Assembly: GCA_947561715.1 (NCBI GenBank)
Contig: OX387204.1
Span: forward strand, 16,001,001-16,065,000
Length of the DNA: 64,000 nucleotides
Direction: 5' to 3'
Origin: Ascidia mentula
Lineage: Eukaryota > Chordata > Ascidiacea > Phlebobranchia > Ascidiidae
Shown here: one piece after another, positions 11,229-64,000 of the stretch
Layout: the number at the start of each line of letters is the position of its first letter
How positions within the stretch are numbered: the stretch's first letter is position 1
The notes under the pieces: generated by a model
What the model saw: the letters and a program-made list of their open reading frames with translations, nothing else
Databases searched by the model: none
Told to the model about the DNA's origin: nothing
Translations under genes and position numbers: made by a program

Positions 11229-12557
11229 ACTATTGCCGAGTCATATACAGCAACGTATATGTTAGAAACATGGATACATATGTAATATTATCTGTTTAGT
11301 TTAGACCCTGTGAAAGTTACTTGGTGGCAACATTGTATATTTGTATCGTTAAGAGCAATATCACGAACATAGTATGTTTACTGCCACCGCACCCAAGGAA
11401 TTGAAGTTACTTTCTCCCGACATGTAGGACCGAGATGACAGTGTGTCATATAATGTACAATATTGATTTCATACTACTGTATTAGAACTGAGAAGTAGAC
11501 AAGGCAGTGAAATGTGTATAAATATTTGAAGAAACTTTAAAATCTTTTTTGTTTTAAACGAGAAATATTTTGATTTTGCTTTCCACCAGAAGGGTTTTTT
11601 CCACGAATGTGTGTTGCCGTCTACATACAAGGAAATTGTCTGAAACACAGAAAACAATATTAAATCATGCACGGACTGGAATTATATTTTTCGTGCAACT
11701 AATAATGTAATATTTTCCAATTACGACATGTTTCTTGCCTTTGTGTATGATCTTCGTTCGTAATAAATGGTTAACGAACAATTGTCGTGGCTGTGAACAT
11801 AACAAGGGGGTCGTTATTTAAAACTCTTTGCAAAACATTTAAAATTTTCCAACTGTCTTGGACAAAAAATACTGTTTGCTTTCGTCAAGAGTGAAATAAC
11901 GAGCACGAGAGATTGTTGCCACAGTACAATGACTTCGCCCAGCTGTGCCTGTTCACGCTTCATGGTCGCCACGCTTCACGGTCCCTAGTGCTTCCCAGAA
12001 CAGGGCACAATTTTGGTTCCTTCTAGCCAGGACAGCTCAGTTGAATACTGTTTTCGATGCGGTGCAAGATCAAAATCCTACCAGACTACCCTATAACTTG
12101 GTACTGGCAGTAAATGATCAGTTTCTATAATGCTGCGATGCATGAGGTTAAACCGTTAGTTAAGTTGAGCAGATCTTCAGTAATCGTTACATTGCCTTAC
12201 ATGTACTGAAATGTTTGGTTAACGGCAATTCATAGCTAGGACTTTATCTTAGCAAAATTCGCCCATATGCTATTCACAATGCAGCTTTGTATGTTTAAAC
12301 CCATGTTACTTTAAATATCGTTTGAGATTTTCCATTGCTTCGTTAACAAGGCACAGAAATATCGTCATGGGTTTATCAGGAGTAAAGAGCACATTAGCAT
12401 TGCTATAAGTAGATTGGTGTGCAACCACAAATTTAAGTTCGTATTCAACCAATTCCTAAAAGTAGGATGTATTTTGTTTTGCCAACACAAACTTAGCCTT
12501 GTTTGTCCTACTGTTTAACAGAGTTGTGTTATCTTATTTGTTCAAAAAGGAGACAAA
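11229..12557. other. Intergenic between zinc-ribbon and CULT genes
   Basis: No exon could be supported. The last 80 bases before 12558 resemble the DNA just before the gene at 2273, including the final gacaaaATG, and probably include the CULT gene leader. Confidence 0.5.
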
Positions 12558-15500
12558 ATGTCGGCCGGGATTTTTGTTAGCGCTATTGTTGGAGTAGGTC
12601 TGGTGTATACAATCTATCAATATGAAAAACAAAAGAAAGCTAATTGCATCCGCAATTCCATCAACCCGCATATTACTCCAAGGAAAAGGGTTCCAGCAAT
12701 AACAACACCAAAAGCAACTTCAACCCATACGTCGGCCACCACACGATTAAAGGAAATATCTAACAAAGGTGAAAACCATAAATATGTATAATATAAAAGG
12801 AAAATGCGTATGCGAAAACAAATGGTTTTCTAGAAAGTGGTGACAAAGTTAAAGGGTTTAGAAAGTATAAACTAAAAAGCTTTGTGATCGGATTGCGGGG
12901 CAGCATGTCACATTTAATAACATGACTATAGTTTCAAGAGTCGTAAATTATTTTACAAACATTTTTCATTTACTAACAATCTAAAAAATGGCTAACAGTA
13001 TATTGTACTATATTTGGTTGCTCAATACTTTCGACAATTTTCTACTTTATTTTATAGGCGGATTTATCGGTGCCCATGTACTTTAACCTTATTATCTTTG
13101 TTTTTTTCCACAGACAGGAATTCAAAGCGTAACAATAAGCAGCAAAGTTCGATGACATTGAGGCGGCGTCGCAAATCTACACGAACAGGTACGAACAAAA
13201 TGTCAAATCAATACAAATTACATGTAGAAATTTGGAAAACATAATTTTTTCGCTTTTTTTATAAATGTTTGTGATATAACCTGATTTTCCCCGTTTCACC
13301 GAAAATACTACTGTCTTTATTTAAAAATAATTTAGCCAATGGAAAATTTTACATTTACAGAAGACCGGGCAATCAAGAAACCAAGGCACCAACAAATTAA
13401 TAAACAAAGAGGTAAATAACAAAGACAAATACGAGGGGTTGGCGCGGAGCCTGTCACATTCATTAACAAGACTACTTTCAAGTGTAGTAAATTACTTTAA
13501 AAATACTGTTCATTTTAAAGAAACTTTTCTAAAAATGGATAAAAAGATTATATTGAACTATGTTAGGTTTTCAATATTTTCGTCGAAACATTTCTACCGC
13601 TTTATTTTTCCGGCTCGATAACCTTTAAAGATTGAAAGTGCCCATATATGTAATTTTACCTCAATGTATTTCTTTTTTTTCTACAGACAGGAATTCAAAG
13701 CGTAACAATAAGCAGCAAAGTTCGATGACATTGAGACGGCGTCGCAAATCTACACGAACAGGTGCGAACAAAATGACAAATCAGTACAAATCACATGCAG
13801 AAAAACAGAAAAACATGACTTTGTTGCTTTATTGCAAATGTATGTGACATAATCTGATTTTCCCCGTTTCACTGAAAATACTACTGTCTTTTTTTGAACA
13901 TAATTAAGGCAATTGAAAATTTTACATTTACAGAAGACCGGGCAATTAAAAAACCAAGACGCCAACAAATAACTGAACAAACAGGTAAACAACAAGAACG
14001 TATACCAGGGGTTTTGAGATGGTTACATATGAATGATTAGCGCGGAGCATTCAATAACATGACTACTTTGCCCATGTAATTTTACCTCAATGCATTTCTA
14101 TGGTTTTTTTCTACAGACAGGAATTTAAAGCGTAACAATGAGCAGCAAAGTTCGATGACATTGAGACGGCGTCGCACATCCACACGAACAGGTGCGAACA
14201 AAATGACAAATCCTACAAATCACATGCAGAAAAACAGAAAAATATGAATTTGTAGCCCGATGCTTTTGAAACATTGCCAATAATTCTAATTCCAATCTAA
14301 GTAAAACTAGCTTTATTTGTTTTAAAACTTACCGATATTATAAAATATGATATATATATATTTGTGTCTATATATGTATAAAAAATGAAGACAGATCATT
14401 TTCCCATCACCGAAAATACGACTGTCTTCATTGGAACATAATTAAAGCAATGGAAAATTTTACATTTACAGAAGACCGTGCAACTAAACAACAAAGACGT
14501 CGACAAATTAATACACAAACCGGTAAATAACAAGGACAAATACCAATGGTTTTGCGACGACTATTGTGCAGTTATGTTTACCGATTGTTTATTTGCAGAA
14601 AAGACTGTTAAATGCGGCAAATGTCAGTCGACAGTGACACAGCTTAAGGACGTAGAAGACAACGAAGGTGTAAACGTCACTTCCATCCGTCGGATTCCAA
14701 TTTATAAAGAGAAGGCGAATTTACTTCAAACATTTAAAGCTTCATCAAATCAAAATTGCGAGGTTTTTACAACATCGCGGGCATACTGTAGTGTGGGGAC
14801 TGAGGTATAAACTGCCATGTGTACATAAAATCCAATAATAGAGGTTAAATTTCTACATTTTTGTTGCACTTAAACCAAAACAATTTCCAAGTATAGGAGA
14901 AATGGCCTTTATAGTGGGCCAGTTAAAGCGTTTTTCCAGCAATTGTTTTTTATTTCAATGTGTTTGACAAGCGATGACATCTTATACACTCAAAACCGTC
15001 CCCAAACACGCCTAAATACGGCTTTGCCACTGTCGCCTGCATTAATGGAAATACATATTTGTGGTTTCAAAGTCACCGTACAGAAAACATATGATTAAAT
15101 GTTGTATATTAAGAATTTGAATCATTATTTTGACAGAATTGGGAATCGACCTGGTTTAAGGGCTATACCTGCAGAAAAGTTTGTTGTAAGGAATGCAGTT
15201 TTGAACTTGGATGGCACTACACACCAAGCAGCTGCCAAACCAACAAGTCGTTTTACGCAATTATAATGGACAATGTAGTGGGTAAGCAGAAGTTGCTACA
15301 TTTGAATTATTGTAATTAATAAACGTTTATGGACTCATGGCAATTTCTGTAATTATATAATATTTCAAGTAAGTTTTTGGGAAGTAGAGTTTCCTGAGTT
15401 AGCAATGTCAAGATAATAACGTGTGAGCTTATACAAATATGACGTGACGCAATGTGCAAGCGTAACTCTTGACATGTGGAGTTATGTCAAAGCTAACGTA

Positions 15501-16838
15501 TGTTGACAGGTAACTTAATGTTCTGTGGAAACTGCAACTACTACGTGGCATGTCCTTCTAATGGCACCGATTCCAAATTGTCTTACACAAAACGGTGCAA
15601 CAAACGCGCAACTTTAAACGAAGATTGCGAGCATCAAATGGATTTGCAAGAAATACATCCTGATGAAGAACCGTTGACCGTCACATTGGTGAAAGATGCT
15701 AATGTGAAAGTGGATGACGCAGTAAGTTTAATATTCCTGGTAATACGTATACTACCAGCTCAATCGTTACAGTTAAAAGTTTCTCACAAGATAGGGGTAA
15801 GGATCGGACCCGTGGCTATGGGTTGTTGCTAAGTCGTTGTTAGAGGGTCCTTGGCAACTTACTGTGCTAATTGTAAAATTTGCAAATATCAGCGTAAATA
15901 GATTTTTCTTAAAACCCTTAAGGACTACTGTGACCTTATCGAAAATGGCCCGCCAGGATAACAGATTTGGCATCAAGCCTAGTGATTAGTCTTAGTGATT
16001 AGTCTTTCCAACATCACAACGGAACCATTTTTGCAACAGAACTGCGCATGAGAAGGCAAAGTGACAAAGTTGTGTTTGTTTACGTAATCACTTGCTCGTT
16101 TTAACATCCCAATGCATGGAAAATTTTTTTGGATCAGACAATACGACGTTTTCATTATTTCGCCAGATCTTTATGACAATTTTACCATGACCCCCTTAAT
16201 TTTCATGTAGAGAACCATGGACAGAGTGTCACTGAAGGGTTACGCACAGAGCAAAATACATTGTTGGCACTGCCAATCTCACCTGGGATGGAAACATTTT
16301 CCACAAAATGATCCGAATGCTCAAACTCTCTACACTCTGATCATCTATAGAGGAAACCTTGGTAAGTTTACAAAGTATTGGACGACTAATTGCCCTAAAA
16401 CAGTGTTTCCCAACCGGTGGTACGCGAGCACCTTTCCGTAATCGGCGGATATACTTTGGATTAAAAAAAAACGTAAATGATCACCAAATCCTCATTCCCA
16501 GGTTGCTTTGTCACATTCGACTAGGCGGTACGCGACAAAAGGTTGGAAATCACTACCCTAAAATATATAGCATAGAAATCGTACTTTCACAAAACTTTTT
16601 TTTTCTGATATATTTTCAAACAAAAGCTTCTTGCTTACAGATCAGGCATTCGTCTATGAAAACGAAGAGACCTTGAAAACAATGTCTTTTGTTTGCTGGA
16701 GAGGTTTCAGAACAAAGGAAAGTAGGTAAACGGGGTTTTGTATGTATAGAGATATCTTAATCGTGGATTTGTAGGAATATTACCTTGGATTGGGAAAATT
16801 CTCTCCATCCAACGCGCACGAAGATCATTATTAGGTAA
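12558..16838 (+). CDS. Membrane-anchored protein with two tandem CULT domains
   Basis: Thirteen exons close in frame to 483 residues: 12558-12768, 13114-13188, 13361-13411, 13687-13761, 13934-13984, 14117-14191, 14472-14522, 14599-14804, 15137-15281, 15510-15721, 16211-16361, 16641-16725, 16775-16838. Residues 3-21 are an N-terminal membrane segment followed by EKQKK, predicting a cytosolic body. Residues 71-196 are three copies of a basic 42-residue linker. Residues 197-313 and 314-434 are CULT domains, the cereblon ligand-binding fold, each with two zinc CxxC sites (CGKC/CKEC; CGNC/CWHC) and the block TWFKGYTCRKVCCKECSFEL or KGYAQSKIHCWHCQSHLGW, matching cereblon WFPGYAW...C..C...GW. Each domain is split at the same place, so the exon pair was duplicated. 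Of the cereblon Trp cage, domain 1 keeps positions equivalent to W380 and W400, domain 2 only W400. Ligand unknown. The last exon junction is the least certain. Confidence 0.85.
13114..14522 (+). repeat. Triplicated two-exon unit encoding a basic linker
   Basis: Exon A (75 bases, containing LRRRRKSTRT) occurs at 13114, 13687 and 14117. Exon B (51 bases, EDRA-K-RQQI) occurs at 13361, 13934 and 14472. Intron sequence is copied too: 'gattttccccgtttca' precedes B1 and B2, and a relative precedes B3. All junctions are phase 1, so any number of units can be included or skipped without a frameshift. Near-identity of A1 and A2 indicates recent duplication. The Arg run could be a membrane-proximal or nucleic-acid-binding patch; this is not shown. 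Confidence 0.9.
14347..14380. repeat. TA-rich microsatellite
   Basis: A tract of TA repeats with an internal 'ttgtgtc' lies in the intron before the third B exon and resembles the one at 8106-8150. Confidence 0.75.
16401..16555. mobile_element. hAT-type non-autonomous element with perfect 8-base target duplication
   Basis: The element is 155 bases, beginning CAGTGTTTCCCAACC and ending GGTTGGAAATCACTA. Exact copies of ccctaaaa flank it at 16393-16400 and 16556-16563. A second pair of subterminal inverted blocks (GGTGGTACGCG and GGCGGTACGCG in direct orientation) is present. It lies in the intron after the exon completing the second CULT domain. It has no coding capacity. Confidence 0.88.
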
Positions 16839-37221: not shown

Positions 37222-42367
<5,146 letters not shown>

Positions 42368-42753
42368 TCAACCTCTAGCTTGCTCAAACACAAGTAAGTA
42401 TCATAATGACCAGCAGAAAGTTGGCAACATTGCACTGCCACTGTTTATATCGAGCGCCGCAGGCGGTTCGCGCGACTTTGCAGCTTTAATTGTTGTTGCG
42501 CTTCAGTAAGTTTGTATACAACCCAACAGAAAAGCATTAATGAAGTGATGTTTATGTTACCATGGAATGTGTTCTATACTTACCCTACTTGGTATCCACG
42601 CGAAACTTACGCTGTACTGTCGTTGTGTATAACTTTTATCACCAAAGTTATTCGTGCTTGGCCCAACTTTATTGAAAAACACGCTTCTCATTTTATAAGC
42701 GGGCAACGCCGTACTGAGATTGTCCACAAAACAAAACACAAATAAATACTATT

Positions 42754-45700
42754 TTATTCCGCCTGTCGGCACGCTTTGCCTTCGTCAGCCAACTTCTTGT
42801 ATCTAAAAAGAAGAAAGTTTCGCCGCGAGAAGAGACACATACGAAAAAGTCCCTTACTTTTGAAACTCAGCCTTCCATGTTTTGTAATCGGACAGCCAGG
42901 ATACGTATTCCTCTTTCCAGGCGAGGTATTCTTCCAAATCAGCGCACTGCTCTGGTGGATTCTGAATACATGGACGGCGTGTTTAATTTAGTTGTGGTTT
43001 TCAAATTGCATATTTGGTTTGACAAGTCAGAAGGTTGTCCAGGGAAACTGGGACAGGAGAACCTTTGCAGTTGGAAACAATAATACTGATCAAGTTACAG
43101 GAGTTCATACAATACAGATTTGATGATTTTTACAGTAGCTTTCAAAAAATAAATCAATTCTTGCAGAGTATTTTTAAAAACATAAGTCACGCAAAACTGT
43201 ACAAAAAATTATTTCGGAGCGTGAATTCATACCGTAGGTGGAACAGGTGTTGATGTTGCGTCATCGCACGAAAGGTCGTTGATGACGTAAGGCACAACGT
43301 TCTTCCACAGGTCACGTGCACGACGGTAATAGTTTTGTTGCATGGAATAGGAGCTTCCAATAACGAGGGTGTCCATTGTCGTTGGATCGTAAACATTCCA
43401 GTGCACGTTGGATTCCGGTAAGGTAATATTTCTGAATAGTTCAGGTTTTTGTCTTGACAAGTACAGATTTATGCAGTTTTCATCTTTATTCTACACAGCC
43501 TCCCACATTAACCGGTTTTCGGAAAAGTAAAAAAAAACTACTCGCTACAGCTCGTTTGTGAAAAACCATGAACAGTAAATGATGATGGCTTTGTTTTTAC
43601 AAAGCAACCTTTAAAGCCGTTAGCAATCGATCAAAACTAACGGTACCGAAAAATCAATGTATCCTTACCCCATGCGTAGAAAGCCTTCAAGCGCTCCAAT
43701 CAGCATTTTGCTGACGTCATCACCATCCTGTGATAGAATGGAGGAGACACTGAAAAAACGTCCTGGAAGACCTTTTTCAAGTAAGTTGATCCGCAAACGC
43801 TGCGGTTTCATTTGAAGAAAATAATTCAGACCGGGTTGATCCAAACGCAAGAAATAGCTGCAAGAATCTCTCATTTCATTAATATTTTTATTTATTAATC
43901 ACATAAAATAAATTGCACTCATAGATACTACGCACATGACCAGTAAACATGAAACATAAAGTGGTGTGGATACAAATAAAACCACAAGAGTTACCGGGTC
44001 TCTAATGGTTTTCTGATGTATTTATGTTGCCGAAATAAGATGGCGAATGTTAATATTATGCTGAGCTACACACACCGAGCCGAGTATTTATCTGCTAATG
44101 ACAATGCCGTTGGAAAACATTTTGTTGTGATAATATTGTCAAGGTTTTTGCATTGACAAAAATTCGGCCATTTGTTGTGAGTTTGTTGACCACAAACCAA
44201 TAGTAAATGGTCAGAAACGGTTTGTTTTGAATCTCGAACAAATAATCAATGAGATTTTCTGTATCACCTTGTATTGTTACAGGCTATAACTTACGTGGTA
44301 ACATTTAGTTGTCTTAGCTTGTCCGCAAATGTGATGGAAGGAACAACAATATTCCAGTCTTTCAACATATTGAGCAGACTTAGGGCTGTGGACGTTTTTG
44401 GATCTGACTCGTCGTAATTTCTATACCCACATGCAAAAAAGTGTGTTTTGTGTCTTATACTTTTTTAACAAAGCAAAATTATATCTTAATTTTTAACTTC
44501 AGATGACCACAGACCAACTATCCAACATTTCAACACAAGTAAAATGTTATCAAACTTCAGAAAAACCCTTTTAAATAATTACTTGTAGTTAAACTCCATC
44601 AGTGTAGACATCAATTCAAACTTTGACTGACTCAGATGTTGGTCTTTCAATATTAGAGCCGCGGCGTTTGTTATCGTTACGTTGAAATTTGCCAATCCAA
44701 TGTATTTTAAACTTTCCAGCTCATCAAGGCCAAACACTACCTTGTATCTGAAATAATCCAAAATCAAATTTAAAGTTATTTTTACTGGGCCAACATATTA
44801 TCTTGCCTATGAAAAACAGAACATGATATTTTTGATTTTATAAATACAAACATTGTGAACACAACAATAGTTTCTGGTGGGAAGTTCTATCTAAAACTCA
44901 CTGATCAACATTAGGTGCCCAGGAGGAAAACTCTTCTGGGAGCCCAGGGAGGAAATTCTCCCCGTAATTGAAGTGGATGATGTCCTCCAGAATCTTCCTG
45001 CTTTGTATTTCTGTGGTGATTCTCACAATTTCCTCCGCACTTTTCGATCGCAAACAACTAAGTTCGTCAGAAGAGTTTTTGCAAAATGTCAAATCTAAAA
45101 TACAACAAAACTGTTTGAAGTGAATTATGTTGTTGTAAGTCAGTTAAAGAGTGAAGATACTCATCATACACCGCCTTAATCTGCAAGAGGAATTATTTAT
45201 CCTAAGCATTAGGTAAATTTGTTTTTAAGCATTGGGTATATTTGTTTAATCTTGACAATCCAATAACCGCACGCCAGTATTCTTACCTAACACTCTTTGA
45301 TAATTTTCCCTCTGCTTTTTTACATCGGCATGTTTGGTTTGTGCAGCTCCCAGAATAATCGCACGTCGAAAAAGACTTGCGTTGTTTAATGGAGACATAA
45401 TCTGCAGGAAAACAGTGCAAAACTTAGTGCATATGATACAGCGGACTTTCAATCTACACATATCTGCTCCATGCATATAACATAGGTCTGTCCTGGAGGT
45501 AATTTCTCGGTTAAATTTTGCTGTTGGAATGTTGATCTATAGAATAACTGGATTTGTCCGGATGAGCTTTTTGCCTTTTTTAATTTTTATCGTGTATTCT
45601 TTTTAGCGTCATACCACTAGTTTTCTACAAGGCACATGGATCATTGATCACAATAATCACCAGATTTTTTTATGACACGGGGATTCGAATCACACCTGGA

Positions 45701-48180
45701 TTCGAATGGGCGAGAATACCGGTCAGGTTTTCCACTTGGTACATGGATCGGTCTGCCTGTTTTATTAAATCTTACCTGGGCACTAACACAGCTCCCTCCA
45801 GCGGAATAACCGACGATTGTGATCGCATTAGGGTTTCCATGAAACAATGCAACGTGTTCTTTTACCCATTGTAAAGCAAGGCGCTGGTCGTAAAGTCCGA
45901 AATTGCCTGGAACAGAACAAGTTTATCTTCAAAAACGTAGTGCATTTTTAGTTCAGCTTTATTGGGGCTTAATTTATACAGTTTTCTCAAAAAAATATAT
46001 TCGCCCCAACAGTGTCTACATGCAAAATCAACACAAAATGGAATCACAAAATAACAATAAAAATGCCCATAGGTTTGTTCGTCGCAGCCGTTGGCAAAAC
46101 TAAACAATTTTCATCGCTCATAGTGACCAAATCTCAAACAAGAGTTGAAAGCAAAGAGTTTAACCAACCTTTCACAATGTCGTTGCCGGATGACAGAAAT
46201 CCGAAGAAACCCAAACGATAGTTTGCAGTCACAACAACCACGTTTGCATCCAGAGCCAGCGATCGAGCGTCGTAAGTCGTGCCTTTGTATCACAAGTAAT
46301 AATATCTCGTAACCAAAAGCGATGAAACGTTTATTTCCTGGCTAAAATCTATCAGTCTAGATATATAAGACAAACGTATTTTGCTCGTAACCAGAAGCAT
46401 CTTTATTTCTAATTTCTATGCTTGTGGATTTCAGAGGTGAAAAAGATTTCTACTTACTCGATCCGTATAGAAGGTTGCCTCCATGAAAATATACAACGAC
46501 TGGAAAGCTCTGCGTTGTGTTGGCTTGAGAAGGTGAATAAATGTTAAGAGTCAGGCAATCCTCGCTGAATTCACTTTTTGAAATGTCTGTAAAAAAAGAC
46601 CCAGTGTTCAAAAGACTTCGACTGACGACATCATCGGTCGGCAATATATAAGGTTTGCTTTGACCTCCTCTACTACATATAGTACTACGCGTATAGCTAC
46701 TGTATATGGAGAGATAACAGTCGTGATTAACAGGCGTCCAGGTTCTTTGCAATTGTGAAAGGCAAAAAATACTGCAAGGAAAAAGGTCATGAATGACCAC
46801 AGGAATTAGCCTGTGCAGGTCTGTGTTGAATGACGGATTTGTCTTTGTACGTATCAGTATATCCCGAAAACTCAGAAACTAAGTTGATCGTCTGTTACTC
46901 TTTTTTTGAGTTCCGGGAAAAAGAAATATTGCGTTACGTTATGTTTTTTTTAATATATTATATCCTAGTTTCAAAAAAAAATATCAATCCACTTTAACCG
47001 AGGCCCCACAAGAGGGGGGTGGAGCCGGTGCTGGATTTTCTATACATCTCCAGAAAAAGGGGTCCTCGTGCCGGTTTGTCTCTTTAAGGGCTTTGATTTT
47101 ACCCATGCAGGTTATGTCCATATATACTATATGAAGAAAACATAGAACATACCTCCAGTTTCTTGCATACATCGGTAGCCAGGAACAGTAGCGTCCCTAA
47201 TTCCAGTCCATCCAGTATGTGACTTGGGTTTGCGGAACCTCAGGGCCCCGACAGGCGGTTGGGCGTACGGGACGCCGTAAAATACGTTGACGCCGGCCTG
47301 TTGGATGCCACGAAGGTTTCCCATTTCCACAGTCGTGTTCGGGAATCCGAGAAGACGATACAGCGGCGTGTAGTCGGAATTAAGTAAAAGTTTGTAAACG
47401 AGATCACTGTCAGGTGCTGTCGAGTTAAAATGAAACCTTTAAGACTTGTTAATATTGCCGGACCGTTCCGTCTTACTTTCAGCTACAATTGGTGGACTTT
47501 TGGATCATGTTTACCGGGATTAATTGTGATTTTGTGTTTAGCAAACTCATTCAAAATAGTTAGTATCGTCGTTAGGTTAGCTAATTACATGCTACAGAAA
47601 ACATTTCAAATTTTCTGCTGATAAACGCAATTAACCAAAATGGAATTCTTGTCTTGTACATTTTAAGCAACCTTTGAGCAATGGTGCTTACCAGATGTCG
47701 GTGGTTGTTCTGTAACGCATAATTTGCATGCGAGAGGGCACTTTTCACGCTCGAATGGTTTCAAGTGAGAGCAGTCAGGAACAGACGCGACGAGATCCTT
47801 GCAATAAACTTCGTCCTTGCATTGCTCTGCCAGTACAACGTCTGAAAATAAAGTCACTTTTATAGCCTTTGCTCCAAGACCTATAAGGTGTCATCAGTGC
47901 AGTTGCATTTTTTTTGCTCTAATTGATTATTATGACTCTTTTGCACACATCATTATTATTAATATGATTAACTGTTAACAGCCTACACATATGAAAAAAA
48001 ATCACTAAAAAGTTTTTGACATGCAGTTTACGGCGTATTGTCATAGGCCAACTACATTCTTGATAAAAAAAACATAGCTGCGCGGTTTAAATACAGCGGA
48101 GATCACTACAAACAACGAGTGTCTTACTTACATGAAATCGCAACGACGATCAAAAATGCGGTGAAGGCAATTCTCAACAT
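42754..48180 (-). CDS. Secreted ShK-carboxylesterase fusion, catalytic His apparently lost
   Basis: Fourteen exons: 48132-48180, 47692-47841, 47153-47416, 46458-46586, 46169-46282, 45776-45906, 45287-45401, 44902-45094, 44583-44747, 44295-44420, 43669-43857, 43233-43431, 42858-42961, 42754-42802. All phases close to 658 residues. Residues 1-21 are a signal peptide. Residues 24-58 have six Cys in ShK/ShKT spacing, ending [11 protein letters not shown]. The esterase domain has [41 protein letters not shown] (Ser270) and the acid in FGLDELES. Where the sister gene has KLVHEDVVAYLFG, this reads [13 protein letters not shown], with no His, so a non-catalytic or altered enzyme is inferred. Catalytically dead cholinesterase-like proteins that act in adhesion or binding are a known theme. 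The C-terminus ends [14 protein letters not shown] and has no membrane anchor. Confidence 0.88.
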
Positions 48181-52153: not shown

Positions 52154-54197
52154 TCACAACTTGCTGGCTGCCCCTTCATCCATGATCCAATGGAGGGAGC
52201 CGGATTCTGGTTGGACCCTAGCCGCTGGAAGTAGTTGGGAAGGATCAGATACAGGAGCAAACACAGCCTGGACAAATTAAGATTTTTATTACTGAACAAG
52301 AAACAAATATGTTCTTAGCTGTATAGCTTTAAACATAATTGCAAACTAAGGTTCATTGTAATGACTAACGATTGTGTAATGGTACAAATACCAAATGCAT
52401 CAACAATGAATTATCAATAATGAATTTTGGTCATGGGTAATTTTAACTGTTGCAGAAAGGTAAGACACAAACAAAATTCATCATCAAAATATCCGATACC
52501 ATTTTGTGTGCATCATTTAATTTATTTGTTTTTGGCACTGACCTTTAAATTATTTAAAGTTTCACCCTTAACAGAAATAAGCTAGCCACTATAGTGTGTT
52601 AAAGTTTCACCTTTTAAACACTATAATGTCAAGGTTGTACATCACCTGCCCAGATTACATTCTTTTAAATTTAGTTAAAACATAAAATTAGTTACAAATT
52701 TGAACAAGAAAGCCAAAACTAGTATGCTATACATAGAGCATATGTTTTGAACAACTCTGTGCTCATCATAAGTGCTAACTGTAATCAAGCAGTTGCATCC
52801 AGGTGCGCAAAGAGGTGGGTGTCTGCTCTATGTCTAGCATACTAGCTTTGGCTTTATTGTCCAAATTACTTAATTAACACAAACCTTTATTGTATCAGCT
52901 TTGCCGCTGCCTGCCGAAATAAAAGCTACATTTCGAGCTTTATTTATCACTGGGTACGTCATCGTTACACGACACGGTGGTGGTTTGGGTGAATCAGATA
53001 TTGAAGCAATCCACTTTTGTGTCTCCTTTAAAAACAGTCAAGAGGTAATCCATAAGCAGCAGAGTAACTTTTGTTCTGTAAAATCTCCCAATATAGTAAA
53101 ACTAACACCCACATACCTGATGCAAGCTGCTTAGAGTTTGTTCGTAATTATGTACTCGGTCACCGAAAAAATTACAAAATGTTACTTTTTTTTATGAAAT
53201 ATAGCTTCAAACTATGACTACAATCTTTGCACAAATTGTAAAGATGCGGGTGTAGCTCATAAAAAATACACACTTGCAATAATTCGTGTCCTGGAAACAG
53301 AGAACATGTGTGACCATCTGGGCCCATTCCCAGTAGCAAGAGATCAAACTGTGGCCAGTCGCCAGTAAAAGTCTTTTTCAGTTTCAGTTCATAATCTGTT
53401 GCACATTCATCCACTGACAGGTCAGGATTGATTGGGACCCATGAGTCTTGAAACCCAACTTTGTCAATTAACTTAGCCTGGAAAAATAACACATTACTGT
53501 TTTAAATAATGTGAGATGAACACAATAATGTGAGATGACAGTTTTTTGTATTGCAAATGATTTGTTTCCAGTGCTGGTTGGCACAACAAAAAACAACCCC
53601 TTTTTTCAAAAAGGAAAGGACTAAAATGTTTGTAACTAAATATAAATGTCCTAAAATGTAAAAAGTATGCTAAAAATATTTGTTACTATGCTCTTGCTGT
53701 TGTATAATGAACACTTAGCTTGTTGTTTATATTTTATCTGCCAGTCACAGGATGCATAAGCTTTACATATTGATTGCCCGACAATCTAACGTTCCCACCT
53801 GAGTAATTACTGTAAACAGGATGATTCAGGAAGTATTGAACCACACAAATAAAATGCCTACTTTTTACCTTGAATTGGCCGTATGTGCTGTCTGTGTTCG
53901 AATAAGACACCAGTCTCTCATCACAAAAAAACACTTTCCACTTACTCCAATCCACATCAGAGTTTCCCGCCAAATTCGATGCCAATATGTTGATGATACT
54001 CCCACCAGATACACCTACAGAAACAAAAAACAAATGTGTGCATGATTTACATCTGAACATTACAATCTTTTTACATTGGAATTACCCAAAGTAAATATCC
54101 CCCTTTCTTTGATTGCAGCTTTGGCAGTGTCGACCACAAACTTCGCAGAAAACCTTGAAACCTCTTCAACAGATGCAAGGATATGTTTATGCACCAT
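52154..54197 (-). CDS. PGLS: 6-phosphogluconolactonase
   Basis: Five exons (54086-54197, 53869-54014, 53274-53477, 52885-53025, 52154-52267) give 238 residues; the human enzyme has 258. It hydrolyses 6-phosphogluconolactone to 6-phosphogluconate, the second step of the oxidative pentose phosphate pathway, in the cytosol. Family signatures are [11 protein letters not shown] near residue 38, [47 protein letters not shown] near residues 130-151, [19 protein letters not shown], and the C-terminal [11 protein letters not shown] matching human LCWFLDEAAA. The lactonase domain is complete and not fused to glucose-6-phosphate dehydrogenase. The start is the first ATG in exon 1 and gives the usual family beginning. 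Its neighbours, SH2 gene and NUP37, are unrelated and on the same strand. Confidence 0.96.
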
Positions 54198-58405: not shown

Positions 58406-61400
58406 TTAAACTGGTACGAGCGTCACGCCGTGTGGATGGGCGTGATTTCTGTGCAGGCAGGTTCTCTGTCGGCAAAGACGTTTTTTCATGAGCTCAAGAA
58501 CTTGGTCAGTCCACAACGACACGCAGCGACCACGTTTAAGTTTGGCGTACGAGCCTCCCCCGGCGATATAGTTCAACACAGTTTCGATGTCACCCTCTTT
58601 GTCGTCGTACCCCACTGCCATTATCTGCAAAACACAACAATATTAGGATGTGTGACTGGCATGGCAACCGTGACAGAGTGTACTGGCTGCGTTTGTCACG
58701 AACGGTTTGCAGCTGTTTGTCATGAAAGACCGGTTACATGAAGTTTGTCCTTGCCACAAGTAGCAGGATTGATGGTTACACCATTGAAAAGCGGCACTGT
58801 ATAATTTATTCCTTTAGCTGATATGCTAAATGATTTTTTTTAATGTTTGCAGTTGTTTGCAAAAGTCTGAGTGAAATAACCGACCTCATAATGATCACTG
58901 AGCTCATCGGCTGCCGCTTTAATGAGGTTGTTTTGCTCGGAATTGGCTGATTTTCTTGTGGTGAAAACCAGCACTGAGGCCAGCTGGTCGTCCGATCCAC
59001 CAACACGTGGTGCAAGATTGTAAAAGTAATCTGGGACATTCTGTAGCGCCAAATGTAGTGCAGAATCTAAAAAGTTGGTGCATGCTATATTAAAGTTTGC
59101 GACTTGTTGTTGCCATGGAAATTAGTCAGCACATTAAATTATTTCATTCTTCGTAAATCCTGTTGAAAAGATTTCTATTCTCGATTCGCATAATGTCCTA
59201 GGTGAGAGACGATGCCTTGGTTGATTCAGGCAACAATAACCCCGCATAATCTTGCACAAGCAAGGCTATTTCTAATGGAGCATTGTGGAGAGTTGCACCT
59301 AATGTACTCTTTGCATTCGTTTATTTATGCTGTATATATCTACCACACCTAAAGGACAGTGTGTAAAAATAATGCCTGCGTTAATCTGCTCCCAAGTGCA
59401 GAAAAAGTTGCGGAATATTTCTCAGTGGAAACTTTGTTTAAATGCTTTCCCACCTCCTCTGACGTCACGGAAGTTCATGTGAGTAATTTGATGCACGAGA
59501 TGCTCGTGATCGCTCGTGAAGTTGATGAAATGAGAATGTTGCAGTCCATCGCTGAAGGGCAGAACCGCAACCCGTAAAGATTCGTCGCCAAGCACCAGAT
59601 TGCTGTAAGTAAATCACGAAGTTGTTATCTTGTCCGAAACTTTCTTCATATCTTATTGATTGGATCGCTGTAGTTTGCAATCTGACATAGCTATTACTTT
59701 GATGCGAAACACAAAGATTTTAAAGAAGGGACTGTTGTTTATTTGTTGTAATATTTTCCTCTACAAGGGTCTGTGGGTCATACACGCGACCTAAAAGTTT
59801 GTTTTTACCTTAGCAGGTCAATAACGATTGATACAAATCCGTTCCAATCCTTCATGTCCATTTCTTCTGACGCTTCAATCAGCACCAACATATTGCCAGG
59901 AACCATTGGTGGACAAATCGCTACAAAAAGTAAGATGTTTAGTAAGATGTGACAAAAAAGTAAGGTTTTTGGTTGCAAACAAGATTTTTGTTGCGTAAGA
60001 CCTCAAAAATAACCACCGAAGGGTTGAATGATTGTAACAAGGTATTCGAAACCAGTTTTATTCAACTAAATTTAAGCATTTTGTGTTATCGCTCGCTTTT
60101 TGGAACACAAAGAATTGCTAACAACGACATTAGATAAAGAGCAATTTTAGTTTTCAATGGAATTGGCTTAGAAAACATGCCTTGATGAATGTTATTCAAT
60201 GGCTTGCTACATTCCAAAAACAATACTTACGTTCACAACAGGCCGGATGTGAGTCATATTTCCCAGTGGGCATGCACTTGTTCTTGCAATAAGTTTCAGG
60301 CATTAGTTCGTAGTTTTCTTCGCATGTAAAGGAACACTCCGACCCAATGTTTGTTCCGTTCGTGCAGTTCACAGTTCCGTGCGGAAGCTTTTGTACTTGG
60401 CACATCACCACTGTACACAAACATTATGATTGTAAAGATGAGATTTTGAAGAAGGCGTATATTGCAGTTGGTTAAGTCGCCAAGGACGTTGGCATTTGCA
60501 AAACATAACTTCTGGAAATAGAGTGTGCTCAAATACCTTGTTAACTTGTCATCTGTTTTATCCAACAAAATTAAAACTAGCTGGGTTTGTCTGAACCGTG
60601 ATGGATATATCACTTTTCAACTGTTGTAATTGCTCTACTTACGTTCACAAGTTGGTGTCTCGTGAGTCCACGCCACAAATTGATCCTCTCCGTTCATCTC
60701 CGTGACACACTCCAAACTTTCATACCCCACCAAGCGGTAATTTGGTTCGCAAGCGAAAGTACAAGTCGTACCCTGGTTGTAGATTGAGTTTGTACATTGC
60801 ACGCTGCCGTGTTGCAAATTCTCAAGCGCATCGCAAACCACTGCAACAATAATATGTTGTTGATATTTTCAAAGAATGTTGCACGGTTGTGCTTAGTGAC
60901 AATGTCACCAGATCTAAAAAAATAAATATACTGCCCCATAATACATGAGGCAGTCTATTATCTATACAGAGGGCATTACATTATCAGAATCACAAATAAA
61001 TTCCCAAGGGAACCTGTATCGAAGCTTGTTATTGAAACATGTAAAGATAACTCACATTCGTGGTCGCAAACTGGAAACTCTTCGCTCCACCTAGCGGCAC
61101 CACTTTCATCTACATTGCACCGCACGGTGTCAGCCCCCCTGAGAAAGTAGCCTTCATAATTGCACTCGAACGTGCAGACTTCATTCGGTCCTTCGCCGAC
61201 GCAACCAACTGTACCGTGTTCCAGTGTGACCGCACGAGGGCGACATTGAGCTATAAAGCAAAAGTCTCGGTTATTCTTGTGGTAATCAACGTGGCCATGT
61301 AAAAAAAGGGTGTAATTTATAAGTTTCCGTTGAGAAGATTGAGACTCACAAAAACGCACAGCTGCTTCCCGATTTAATATTTCGTGACTAAGCAATTTTG

Positions 61401-64000
61401 TAAGCCTGATTTTGCACCGATCAAACAAGTTAACGGCATGCAACTCTTTATCAGCCACTTCGTACGAACAAGGTGTAACTTATTAAGTAGGTGTCTGTTC
61501 AATAATGCGTGGGTGTTCGTATCAGGCAACCTCGGTTAATTTGCAAACGTTCTAACGTGATGCTACGGGTGTTTGTAACCGCACATCATAGGCAGCAGGT
61601 GACCAAACCTTGTCAGATCAGCTATATTTTAATCCGCTGCGCCTAGGGCAACGCCCTTAAATAAGCGTAGGCGGTAAGTCATCAAGTGTCATGTGAAAAG
61701 TAGTGATAGGTACGCACACATATCTGTGGTTACATTTATGTGGTCGTTTAGACATTGTTGGCAATTTATTCGAGGTTGAAGCTCGATAAGAAAAAAATTC
61801 AAGCTACGCGTAAAGAAACTCACGTTGGCATGTAAATTCCATTTCGCTCCAGTAATAACTGCCCTCGACACCCCTGCAAGTGGTAACCATAAGCCCGGTG
61901 GGGATTCGTCCTTCGTCGCAGGTGTAAGAACACACAGTTCCACGTTCGTAGCTCCTTGCTTCTTCCTGGTCGCATGTGACTGTACTGTGGCTTACTTTAG
62001 GCAAGTTGCCTTGTGTGCACATTCCAAAAAGCGGCGAGTCTGCGCGTAACAATGTTGGGTTAAAGTGGAATTTTGTTGCCACCTACAGTATTTTTAGTGC
62101 TGTATTTGCAATTTGGGTAGAAATATATATAGTAAAGTAGGAATAATTTTGCTGTTGCCATTGTATTTGTTATCATTGTCTTCCCATCAAAAAATGGGTT
62201 TTTGTGTTCCGAAGAGTTTGGCAATATTAATATAACTCAACGACGAACTCCTCTCAATTTTGATTCCAATTCTATTTGAAATACGTCACATTTACACACA
62301 TTAGTGGAAATTCCACTCGGTAATCACTATTTCCGCACGTAAATCACGTTTCAAAGTGGTTGTCTGTTATTTGACGTCACAACGTCCACGCTGCGACGTA
62401 ATAAATTCTATTGTGACGTATTTTGGCATGGGTGGCAATACACAAGCGACCAGAGAAGATTCACACGATTTTGGCTGTGTTTTTCATGATGCGACCATAA
62501 CTGAGTTTAGTCTCCTTACCATCTGGTCTGTTGGGATCGACTTCAACCACAGTTTTGCGACAAACCGGCTGCCCGTCGCTCCACCGAGCTCCCCGTTTCT
62601 CCTGTTTACAAATCGCCATACGGGACCCGAATAACTCGAAACCTTCGTTGCAAAAGAACCTGGAAGGAAAGTTCTGTCGTAAATATGTGATCAGGAATTA
62701 TTATTCAGTTTGCGGATGCTCAAATTTTATACAGCTAAGATTTACGCAAAGTTTTTTAGCGGAAACATTGTGGCGAGTTCATATCGTATACGGTAAGCCT
62801 CGTTTTGATCAGCTATGCATGGGAAGCCTTTTCAAAATTAAATCTGAAAATCCTACGTGAATGTGATTGATTAATTTCAATGTTTTGCATTCCTAATTTT
62901 TTTGCAATTTTTTCACGCGAAATTATCGTGGAGTCGAACAGTTCCCGGAATTTCACAAGTCATCTTGCGCGCAATCCAAAGTCTCTGACTCTGACTTGCG
63001 TCCAATTCTCGTTGGTTGTTCTTTCCGCTGACGCAAGTTACCCATGTGGTTAAGTCACGAAAAGGAAACTCGCATGTATTACACTTCGGGGTACAGTGGC
63101 CAACGAATCTGGAGTTCATTATGACTTTATGATGAACCTCATCGTCATTGCGCAGATTGATACACGTTATGGCACAACCCTTGCCGTAAGAGCTGCGGCT
63201 CGTTGCGAGTTGTCACGTAGTTAAATGACGTTGGCCGACATTCAAACATTGATGAGCGCTCGGAGTCGCTTTCTTTGTTATTTTGTTGAAGGTTAAGTCA
63301 GCGTAACGAAACGTGATTTTTGGCTGTTTAGATAATACGCGATTCTCGTTAATAAAAAATGTTTTTTTTTATGACGTAATTGATGACGTCAGTAAGCTCA
63401 TCCGATTTTCTCTTGATTTATTTCTATCGTTTTCGTGTTTTTATGCTTGAGATTTTTCTTTAACTAGTACGAAAACGAACCTGCAGACACTTCCGACGTT
63501 GTTGTTTCTCGTGCACCAAAATCTACCGTCAACAGGAGCTGTGACCTCGGGGTTGCACGCCACCTTGCGGCAAGTCGGGGTAGGAGATGACCATTGTTTG
63601 TTTTTACCTGTTTAAATTAAAAACATTCGTCAATGTTGAGCAACGCTACGGGTTTAAATTTTTGCTGCTGCCCCGCAAAAGGTATTTGACAAAAACTACT
63701 GGTAACTTGCTTCAATATTTTAGGCGGTGAAATAGGTTATTATTTGTTTAAACGGTGGATAACCCTATACATTTTCTACTCTCGTGCTTTGTCATCGCAG
63801 CAAACAAAATTGACCTTCGCCGCGGAAAACGTATTGTAGCAATACTGGCAGCTCTAAACCCTATCCATCATAGTTAGGTTTTGATCTCATAAACAACCAC
63901 AGCCTTTAACCAGATTCCGGAACTAAAGAAAAATTGCGCGAAATCATACAGCGGGAGATAGCTGGAACTCACTGCAAGCGGTTTGTCGTCAAACCTTACG
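58406..64000 (-). CDS. Complement-like CCP (sushi) and VWA protein, 5' end outside the window
   Basis: Eleven exons in window: 63481-63607, 62520-62659, 61824-62039, 61056-61250, 60643-60840, 60231-60410, 59809-59920, 59454-59602, 58885-59066, 58406-58624, plus the last base of an upstream exon at 64000. They encode the tail of one CCP, five whole CCP modules (for example LQHGSVQCTN, CTFACEPNYRLVG, TPTCE) and a C-terminal VWA domain (NMLVLIEASEEMD, RVAVLPFSDG, ASVLVFTTRKS, IMAVGYDDKEGD). CCP plus VWA is the order of complement factor B/C2, but the frame ends after the VWA and a short basic tail, with no serine protease. The metal site DxSxS is replaced by EASEE, so metal-dependent binding is doubtful. 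It is presumably secreted, although the signal peptide is not in view. A role in innate recognition is inferred. Confidence 0.88.

Follow-up and report, generated by a model that had tools for sequence, protein, structure and literature searches.

The gene and its exons

The window, i.e., the whole stretch of 64,000 nucleotides of Ascidia mentula DNA that was analysed, contains a predicted gene on the forward strand at positions 12558-16838. Its model is a prediction from the DNA letters alone. It was rebuilt independently and reproduced the 13 exons of an earlier note on this DNA: all are open and joined via 12 GT-AG introns into a single frame of 483 amino acids plus stop (Table 1). The predicted 5' end of the gene is provisional because a good-looking splice acceptor lies upstream of the ATG, which follows its AG after 36 bases; it could be a spliced-leader site or the end of a 5'UTR intron or of a coding intron.

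The repetitive basic linker that the earlier note had described proved to be built from three exon-pair repeats, each composed of a unit A and a unit B. The unit-A exons are conserved above their flanks (p 2e-3 to 2e-5); the conservation of the unit-B exons is no higher than that of the flanks. Each CULT domain is interrupted by a phase-0 intron and flanked by phase-1 introns.

Table 1. Predicted features of the tandem-CULT gene (positions within the window)
Feature	Position	Strand	Remarks
3' splice acceptor candidate (AG)	12520..12521	+	ctactgtttaacag; good-looking; read directly, role inferred
Exon 1	12558..12768	+	begins with the start codon; contains the hydrophobic segment (aa 3-20) and a basic flank; from gene model and hydropathy
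Predicted membrane segment, aa 3-20	12564..12617	+	AGIFVSAIVGVGLVYTIY; 3 Lys among the next 10 residues
Exon 2	13114..13188	+	linker repeat unit A, copy 1; includes RRRRK
Exon 3	13361..13411	+	linker repeat unit B, copy 1
Exon 4	13687..13761	+	unit A, copy 2; conserved above flanking introns
Exon 5	13934..13984	+	unit B, copy 2
Exon 6	14117..14191	+	unit A, copy 3 (RRRRT)
Exon 7	14472..14522	+	unit B, copy 3
Exon 8	14599..14804	+	CULT1 first half; zinc pair C202/C205; length and phases match second gene
Exon 9	15137..15281	+	second half of CULT1, STWFKGYTCRKVCCKECSFELGWHY; zinc pair C282/C285; W, C, W at the cage positions
Exon 10	15510..15721	+	CULT2 first half; zinc pair C319/C322; length 212 as in second gene
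Exon 11	16211..16361	+	second half of CULT2, RVSLKGYAQSKIHCWHCQSHLGWKHF; zinc pair C402/C405; S, Q, W at the cage positions
Exon 12	16641..16725	+	tail after CULT2; weak counterpart in second gene
Exon 13	16775..16838	+	C-terminus, TAA stop

Assignment of the domains

Two CULT domains in tandem, each with both zinc CxxC pairs and the GY..CxxC..GW block, had been proposed from the letters, and the proposal holds. CULT is the domain with which cereblon binds thalidomide. A CULT profile (HMM) was made from 120 public proteins (the best 120 of 240 hits), none of them from this genome. It matches CULT1 with 40.3 bits (E 3e-10) and CULT2 with 30.6 bits (E 3e-7; E-values for 20,000 sequences); the top scores of shuffled domains were 9.3 bits for CULT1 (n = 1000) and 10.8 bits for CULT2 (n = 1000; 973 reported). 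Only two of the 2175 six-frame segments of the window fell below E 1, i.e., exon 9 (8e-9) and exon 11 (3e-5). All eight zinc cysteines are kept, with conserved spacing. A Lon-like domain is missing, as had been claimed: no LON match was found within the 483 residues.

Of the other beta-tent families, Yippee was the one compared directly. The Pfam umbrella family Yippee-Mis18 (PF03226), which has the zinc pattern in common with the window protein, gives 28.8 bits for the latter as a whole, against a cut-off of 26.6, and the match divides into two stretches if E values up to 1 are allowed; the single domains reach 18.1 and 20.9 bits and stay under the cut-off. Human YPEL5 reaches 18.3 bits with the CULT profile, below the values of both window domains. 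In the PDB, CULT1 alone finds a bacterial cereblon, isoform 4 of Magnetospirillum (4V2Y), as its best match (E 4.5e-7). CULT2 alone is marginal, with cereblon (E 0.039) second to ryanodine receptor 3 (E 0.023); the latter is taken to be a chance match, being absent at E 1 when the CULT2 profile is used. With profiles from the domains of both tandem genes (see below), cereblon comes out on top for CULT1 (5.5e-9) and CULT2 (0.0019), and Yippee is the weaker match (YPEL5, 0.5 in both). By profile, both regions thus appear nearer to CULT than to Yippee, weakly so in the case of CULT2.

Relatives in the same genome and elsewhere

The genome contains a second tandem-CULT gene with identical intron phases and exon lengths of 206/148/212/151/91, as compared to 206/145/212/151/85 in the window gene; exon 13 has no convincing counterpart at its locus (L016). 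There are, in addition, a gene for a single CULT behind what looks like a signal peptide (C67) and a cereblon gene of the LON + CULT type (on C1). C69 has three fragments that resemble exon 11 and are nearly identical to one another (L017-L019); we regard them as relics in a repeated segment, not as genes. That the genome is ascidian is borne out by its mitochondrial code and by a gene similar to one of Phallusia.

In the tree, the CULT2 domains of the two tandem genes pair with a support of 100/100 and the CULT1 domains with 92/62, and a sister placement of the window's own two domains is rejected (AU p 3.9e-6). By this tree, the tandem arose before the two genes split. CULT2 is the better conserved half, with 50% identity between the genes versus 39% for CULT1. 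The tandem and the secreted type group at 95/89, yet a grouping with cereblon is still not rejected (AU p 0.17), and long branches (4.8 for the CULT2 pair, 2.0 for window CULT1) make the deep placement unsure.

Secreted single-CULT animal proteins form group II in the classification of Lupas et al. 2015 (PMC4287342); the members used here were the product of the C67 gene and P0018 of Phallusia. They have one CULT, a full tryptophan cage, an apparent plain signal peptide and no basic repeat linker. The window protein resembles them in its two CxxC pairs and is nearest to them in the tree, but differs by its two CULTs and its long linker; its N-terminus is hydrophobic and then rich in Lys. The intron position, compared by eye, is common to the window gene and the C67 gene and differs in cereblon. 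In both genes a phase-1 intron is followed by one of phase 0, with the W380 block behind them; since only one secreted gene was compared, this layout is not known to define the secreted family. With cereblon, the CRL4 substrate receptor, the window protein has the CULT sequence and the zinc ligands in common, but it lacks LON, carries two CULTs and has an incomplete cage. Bacterial CULT proteins, unlike the window protein, are single domains with a full cage, and a second CULT was seen near the CULT gene in none of 80 bacterial loci (94 were found; flanks of at most 1.5 kb).

Other tandems did not turn up. With the window tandem as query, none of 128 candidate proteins matched at E 0.01; the tandem of the second gene matched one of 50, namely P0001, a metagenome protein with a single CULT. 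The database includes animal proteins, one of Phallusia, but the absence of tandem matches is weak, because candidates must share 5-letter words. Phage records yielded no CULT with the Magnetospirillum protein as query, and no tandem CULT appears in the titles and abstract openings of the papers listed by the literature searches.

The tryptophan cage

The residues W380/W386/W400/F402 of human cereblon align with W/C/W/Y in window CULT1 and with S/Q/W/H in window CULT2. The three-tryptophan cage is, therefore, incomplete in both: CULT1 has two of three, W386 being replaced by Cys, and CULT2 has one. The hairpin asparagine (N351) is kept in neither domain; CULT1 has lost the NP motif, and CULT2 has no Asn there. 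CULT1 of the second gene, in contrast, displays all three cage tryptophans (W/W/W/Y) and the NP motif, while its CULT2 lacks the same two as window CULT2. In the best 120 of 240 public CULT hits, W380, W386 and N351 are found in 120/120 and W400 in 119/120, but this list was gathered by words that include the cage and hairpin motifs. According to Lupas et al. (PMC4287342), residues of this kind become less conserved toward the peripheral CULT groups. The cereblon double mutant Y384A/W386A is used as a non-binder of thalidomide-type drugs (PMC11203266, PMC9217950); the relevant parts of these papers concern the double mutant and do not cover W386 alone.

The earlier note had suggested a receptor for small ligands or degron-like ends, or a tether for them. 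For the window copy this idea is unsupported, with the cage incomplete in both domains and N351 lost; it would fit better to CULT1 of the second gene. Since the latter has an intact cage and the same two tryptophans are gone in its CULT2, a cage-bearing CULT1 combined with a cage-less CULT2 is probably ancestral, and window CULT1 drifted further.

N-terminus and topology

The predicted membrane segment has a Wimley-White mean of 0.25 (octanol) or 0.20 (interface), and on the Kyte-Doolittle scale no other 19-mer of the protein surpasses residues 1-19 (1.98). Outer-membrane signal-anchors of organelles are described as having a hydrophobicity <0.4 and three or more basic residues after the membrane segment (PMC4010795). 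The window protein has both, the octanol and interface means alike being <0.4. Of the anchor proposed in the earlier note, the hydrophobic segment is confirmed, whereas the anchoring itself is a prediction. A match of the segment to COX14 (Pfam E 0.043, under cut-off) was discarded as mere composition.

No Lys or Arg precedes the hydrophobic segment, and the charge amounts to +4 over aa 24-40 and +33 over the 126-residue repeat part. By the positive-inside rule, positive charge directly after a membrane segment favours a cytosolic C-terminus. The N-terminus is, accordingly, predicted to fit a cytosol-facing signal-anchor, with a lumenal topology as the alternative. The latter would mean that the N-terminus serves as a signal peptide or as an anchor of type II, that the CULT pair is lumenal or extracellular, and that furin-type cleavage at each of the three RRRR motifs releases it, i.e., an extension of the secreted animal CULT proteins. 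We consider this somewhat unlikely. Of course, the signal-peptide type is the nearest relative by tree and intron position, and exon 1 ends in phase 1, as does the exon for the signal peptide in the C67 gene (by eye). There are also four NxS/T sequons (N222, N301, N331, N464), RX[KR]R motifs at 87, 129 and 171, and ten Cys beyond the zinc pairs. At the position of N301, the second gene and the C67 protein have a sequon, too; so does P0001, and this sequon, therefore, may be structural. The other three, however, lack a counterpart at the corresponding positions of the second gene, a cleavage site was not seen by eye, and the charge distribution points the other way.

Less likely readings: decay, or two genes read as one

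A reading of the window gene as a duplicate in decay, with CULT1 under relaxed constraint and no distinct role, appears quite improbable. Apart from the loss of W386 and N351, the speed of CULT1 speaks for it: unique changes in the window gene versus the second gene are 18 vs 5 (p 0.011) if the outgroup is the secreted CULT of this genome and 14 vs 4 (p 0.03) if it is P0001. The difference is, however, not significant with Magnetospirillum (14:7, p 0.19) or human (13:6, p 0.17) as outgroup, and CULT2 is not accelerated (8 vs 6). All exons are open, all eight zinc ligands are retained, linker unit A is conserved, and pN is well under pS between the tandem genes (0.37 vs 0.70; 190 aligned codons), although a pairwise value cannot assign the branch.

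That an anchor/linker gene and a CULT gene were read as one is very improbable: elsewhere in the genome, nothing matches the anchor/linker part below E 0.1, and the second gene yielded no anchor exon, but introns 1-7 are all phase 1, exon 8 begins in the matching phase, and the intron between exons 7 and 8 has just 76 bases. As to the second gene, 14.4 kb of its upstream sequence revealed no anchor exon when scanned more strictly, and anchoring is thus not established as common to both genes. An apparent candidate (L016 4003, MVRPDSS...) was rejected; it exits in phase 0 (by eye), where phase 1 is required, and lies antisense to a transposase-like remnant, which we take to be pogo-like.

What the protein might do

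Tentatively, and with little less than an even chance, we see here an ascidian gene for a membrane-tethered, two-headed CULT/beta-tent protein that faces the cytosol and has a remodelled CULT1 and a cage-less CULT2. The CULT pair predates the gene duplication. By that time, parsimony suggests, CULT2 had already lost two of the three cage tryptophans and retained the zinc ligands; afterwards, CULT1 of the window gene lost W386 and the hairpin Asn. Exon 1 would provide an uncleaved signal-anchor, most likely in the outer mitochondrial or ER membrane, with the remainder of the protein in the cytosol, and the repeat-built linker of about 175 residues may space the CULT pair from the membrane. CULT2, lacking the cage, might partner CULT1 in a protein-binding or structural role, and CULT1 might be a remodelled pocket that probably no longer serves cyclic imides or uridine-type ligands. 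Because the LON part is absent, the protein may act as a tether or adaptor, not as a CRL4 substrate receptor. The sequons and the extra Cys count against this picture; they would suit a lumenal protein.

A bolder version is unlikely: an asymmetric ascidian pair of one pocket and one blank on a cytosol-facing membrane, where the cage-less CULT2 has acquired a new, conserved binding function and the intact CULT1 of the second gene reads cyclic-imide or similar marks independently of a ubiquitin ligase. The membranes considered for this version were the outer mitochondrial, the ER or, via the repeated RRRRK linker, the inner nuclear one.

This gene bears on what CULT domains do outside cereblon. 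The layout suggests that CULT can act in animals as a shufflable module bounded by phase-1 introns. A single genome here holds four CULT genes: cereblon, a secreted one, a tandem with the cage in CULT1 and a tandem with an incomplete one. They represent a natural series of mutants, in which the fold can be studied without its drug-binding cage but with its zinc ligands.

Gene model and identity of the domains

Rebuilding the gene from the raw sequence yielded 13 exons at 12558-16838, all 12 introns being GT-AG, in a single frame of 483 residues; the coordinates and exon count of the earlier note are thus correct. Hydrophobicity, taken over stretches of 19 residues, peaks at residues 1-19. The linker, encoded by exons 2-7, is built from a 75-nt plus 51-nt exon pair in three copies, head-to-tail, and the similarity runs beyond the exons into the introns. 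When copies are compared with each other, the exons of unit A (74/75, 70/75, 71/75) are more alike than their flanks (54/64, 41/64, 44/64; p 0.002, 2e-5, 5e-5). The exons of unit B (43/51, 38/51, 40/51) are not more alike than theirs (116/135, 99/135, 95/135; p 0.70, 0.51, 0.18 in the three comparisons).

By sequence, the two tandem domains are CULT domains, as had been proposed. On a profile of 120 public proteins, from which sequences of this genome were excluded, CULT1 scores 40.3 bits and CULT2 30.6 bits. Shuffled sequences reached at most 9.3 bits for CULT1 (1000/1000 reported) and 10.8 bits for CULT2 (973/1000 reported), and among 2175 segments from a six-frame translation of the window, exons 9 and 11 alone had E<1. 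Among solved structures, CULT1 alone matched Magnetospirillum cereblon (E 4.5e-7). CULT2 alone remained marginal, with RyR3 (0.023) ahead of cereblon (0.039); a CULT2 profile of both tandem genes had cereblon on top (E 0.0019), and RyR3 was absent at E 1. Yippee-like 5 was a weaker structural match than cereblon, for CULT1 alone and for the two-gene domain profiles, and human YPEL5 scored 18.3 bits on the CULT profile. Pfam covers CULT only by the umbrella family PF03226, where the whole protein scores 28.8 bits (cut-off 26.6) and the single domains, at 18.1 and 20.9 bits, stay below the cut-off.

Relatives and other features

The relatives are compiled in the table together with other features of window and genome; the genome searches score the best candidates only, so that this roster of CULT relatives may be incomplete.

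Features of the window and of the Ascidia mentula genome (C, contig; L, locus fetched from it)
Feature	Location	Remarks
CULT1	exons 8-9	window gene
CULT2	exons 10-11	window gene
Second tandem-CULT gene	L016 4928-6849 (C69:15322427-15324348)	
Possible last exon of second gene	~L016 7201-7371	three sequons if donor CAAA|gtacgt is used (by eye)
Single-CULT gene	C67 (L020)	apparent signal peptide
Cereblon	C1	LON and CULT exons
Yippee-like exon	same genome	
Exon-11 relic, three copies	L017, L018, L019 (C69 15.13, 15.20, 15.23 Mb)	adjoin EGF-like reading (by eye)
Open frame, 399 codons	27133-28332 (+)	several hydrophobic stretches, GPCR-like by eye; 360-aa part: nothing in Pfam at E 0.1
Carboxylesterase-type exon	41597-46878 (-)	PF00135, E 1.2e-18 for frame 41597-41962
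Carboxylesterase-related frame	46450-46878 (-)	by eye only
6-phosphogluconolactonase/glucosamine isomerase-type exon	53734-54081 (-)	PF01182, E 1.8e-12
Sushi-like exon	60976-61479 (-)	PF00084, E 0.0023, just short of cut-off
COX1	C79:4437-5774 (L131)	16 AGA/AGG codons sensible as glycine

The relics lie in a segment at least 8.6 kb long that occurs in three copies of 97-99.6% identity; the relic of L017 comprises 96 bases, 92.7% identical to the second gene. Pieces of this segment are also found upstream of the second gene.

Of the 21 AGA/AGG codons in the whole translated COX1 stretch, 5 precede the gene itself; TGA does not act as a stop. Several of the 16 in the gene fall at conserved glycine sites. 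Reading AGR as glycine, together with the TGA read-through, indicates the ascidian mitochondrial code.

History of the tandem

The exons of the second gene (206/148/212/151/91) resemble those of the window gene in length (206/145/212/151/85), and the phases are identical. In the genome search, nothing else matched the anchor or linker exons under E 0.1, the next hit being at 0.7. Between the genes, the CULT1s are 39% and the CULT2s 50% identical, CULT1 versus CULT2 19-25%. In the tree the CULT2s pair at 100/100 and the CULT1s at 92/62, and a sister placement of the window gene's own two domains is rejected (AU p 3.9e-6). Because the domains pair across the genes, the tandem was formed first and the gene duplicated later.

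Between the two genes, pN is 0.37 and pS 0.70 for the 190 codons compared in exons 8, 10 and 11, synonymous sites being near saturation and exon 9, which differs in length, being omitted. With two outgroups the window CULT1 changed faster than its counterpart in the second gene (18:5, p 0.011; 14:4, p 0.03); with two others the excess is not significant (14:7, 13:6). CULT2 rates do not differ with any of the four.

Each CULT has phase-1 introns at its bounds and a phase-0 intron inside. The secreted-type gene on C67 likewise has phase-1 then phase-0 introns, whereas cereblon has an intron after WFPG (both by eye). The C67 protein groups with its Phallusia mammillata counterpart at 100/98, and the four tandem domains and the secreted proteins form one side of a branch (95/89). 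A grouping of the tandem with cereblon was not rejected (AU p 0.17), and the deep placing is unsure because the CULT2 pair and the window CULT1 sit on long branches. Descent from a secreted type is likely.

Anchor and topology

On the Wimley-White scales, the hydrophobic segment averages 0.25 (octanol) and 0.20 (interface), and three Lys are found in the ten residues behind it. PMC4010795 gives a hydrophobicity under 0.4 and three or more basic residues for organellar outer-membrane signal-anchors; segment and Lys flank agree with both. This, and the net charge of +33 over the 126 residues of the repeat linker, argues against a lumenal protein. A lumenal topology is nevertheless allowed: there are four sequons, one at a site that is also a sequon in the other tandem gene and in the C67 protein, and ten Cys besides the zinc pairs, and the ancestry is likely of the secreted type. 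On balance, we lean towards a cytosolic window protein.

Ligand pocket

At the positions of human W380/W386/W400/F402, the window protein has W/C/W/Y in CULT1 and S/Q/W/H in CULT2; the second gene has W/W/W/Y and I/Q/W/H, respectively. W380, W386 and the hairpin Asn occur in 120/120 public CULT proteins and W400 in 119/120, an invariance that is overstated, because these are the best half of 240 matches, found by words containing these motifs. A trypanosome CULT protein retains two of the three tryptophans, with Phe at the third, according to PMC11032742. The cereblon double mutant Y384A/W386A serves as non-binding control in PMC11203266 and PMC9217950. In view of this precedent and the altered cage, we do not accept the earlier proposal of a receptor for the window copy. 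The CULT1 of the second gene has the complete tryptophan cage and the NP motif. This domain may be a receptor, and the second gene probably lends itself better to ligand tests.

Novelty of the tandem

Of 94 bacterial loci found, 80 were examined with flanks of up to 1.5 kb, and a second CULT was seen in 0/80; the best 120 of 240 public proteins (up to 252 aa) likewise include none with two. Protein searches with tandem queries found no tandem relative, nor did the literature searched contain a tandem CULT among the matches listed. In Lupas et al. (PMC4287342), no tandem is among the architectures of section 7, and the text lacks the phrase 'two CULT'. Tandem CULTs may lie unremarked in databases, e.g., among other ascidian genomes. 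Going by the loci, proteins and literature covered, the tandem CULT is a new architecture within a known domain family.
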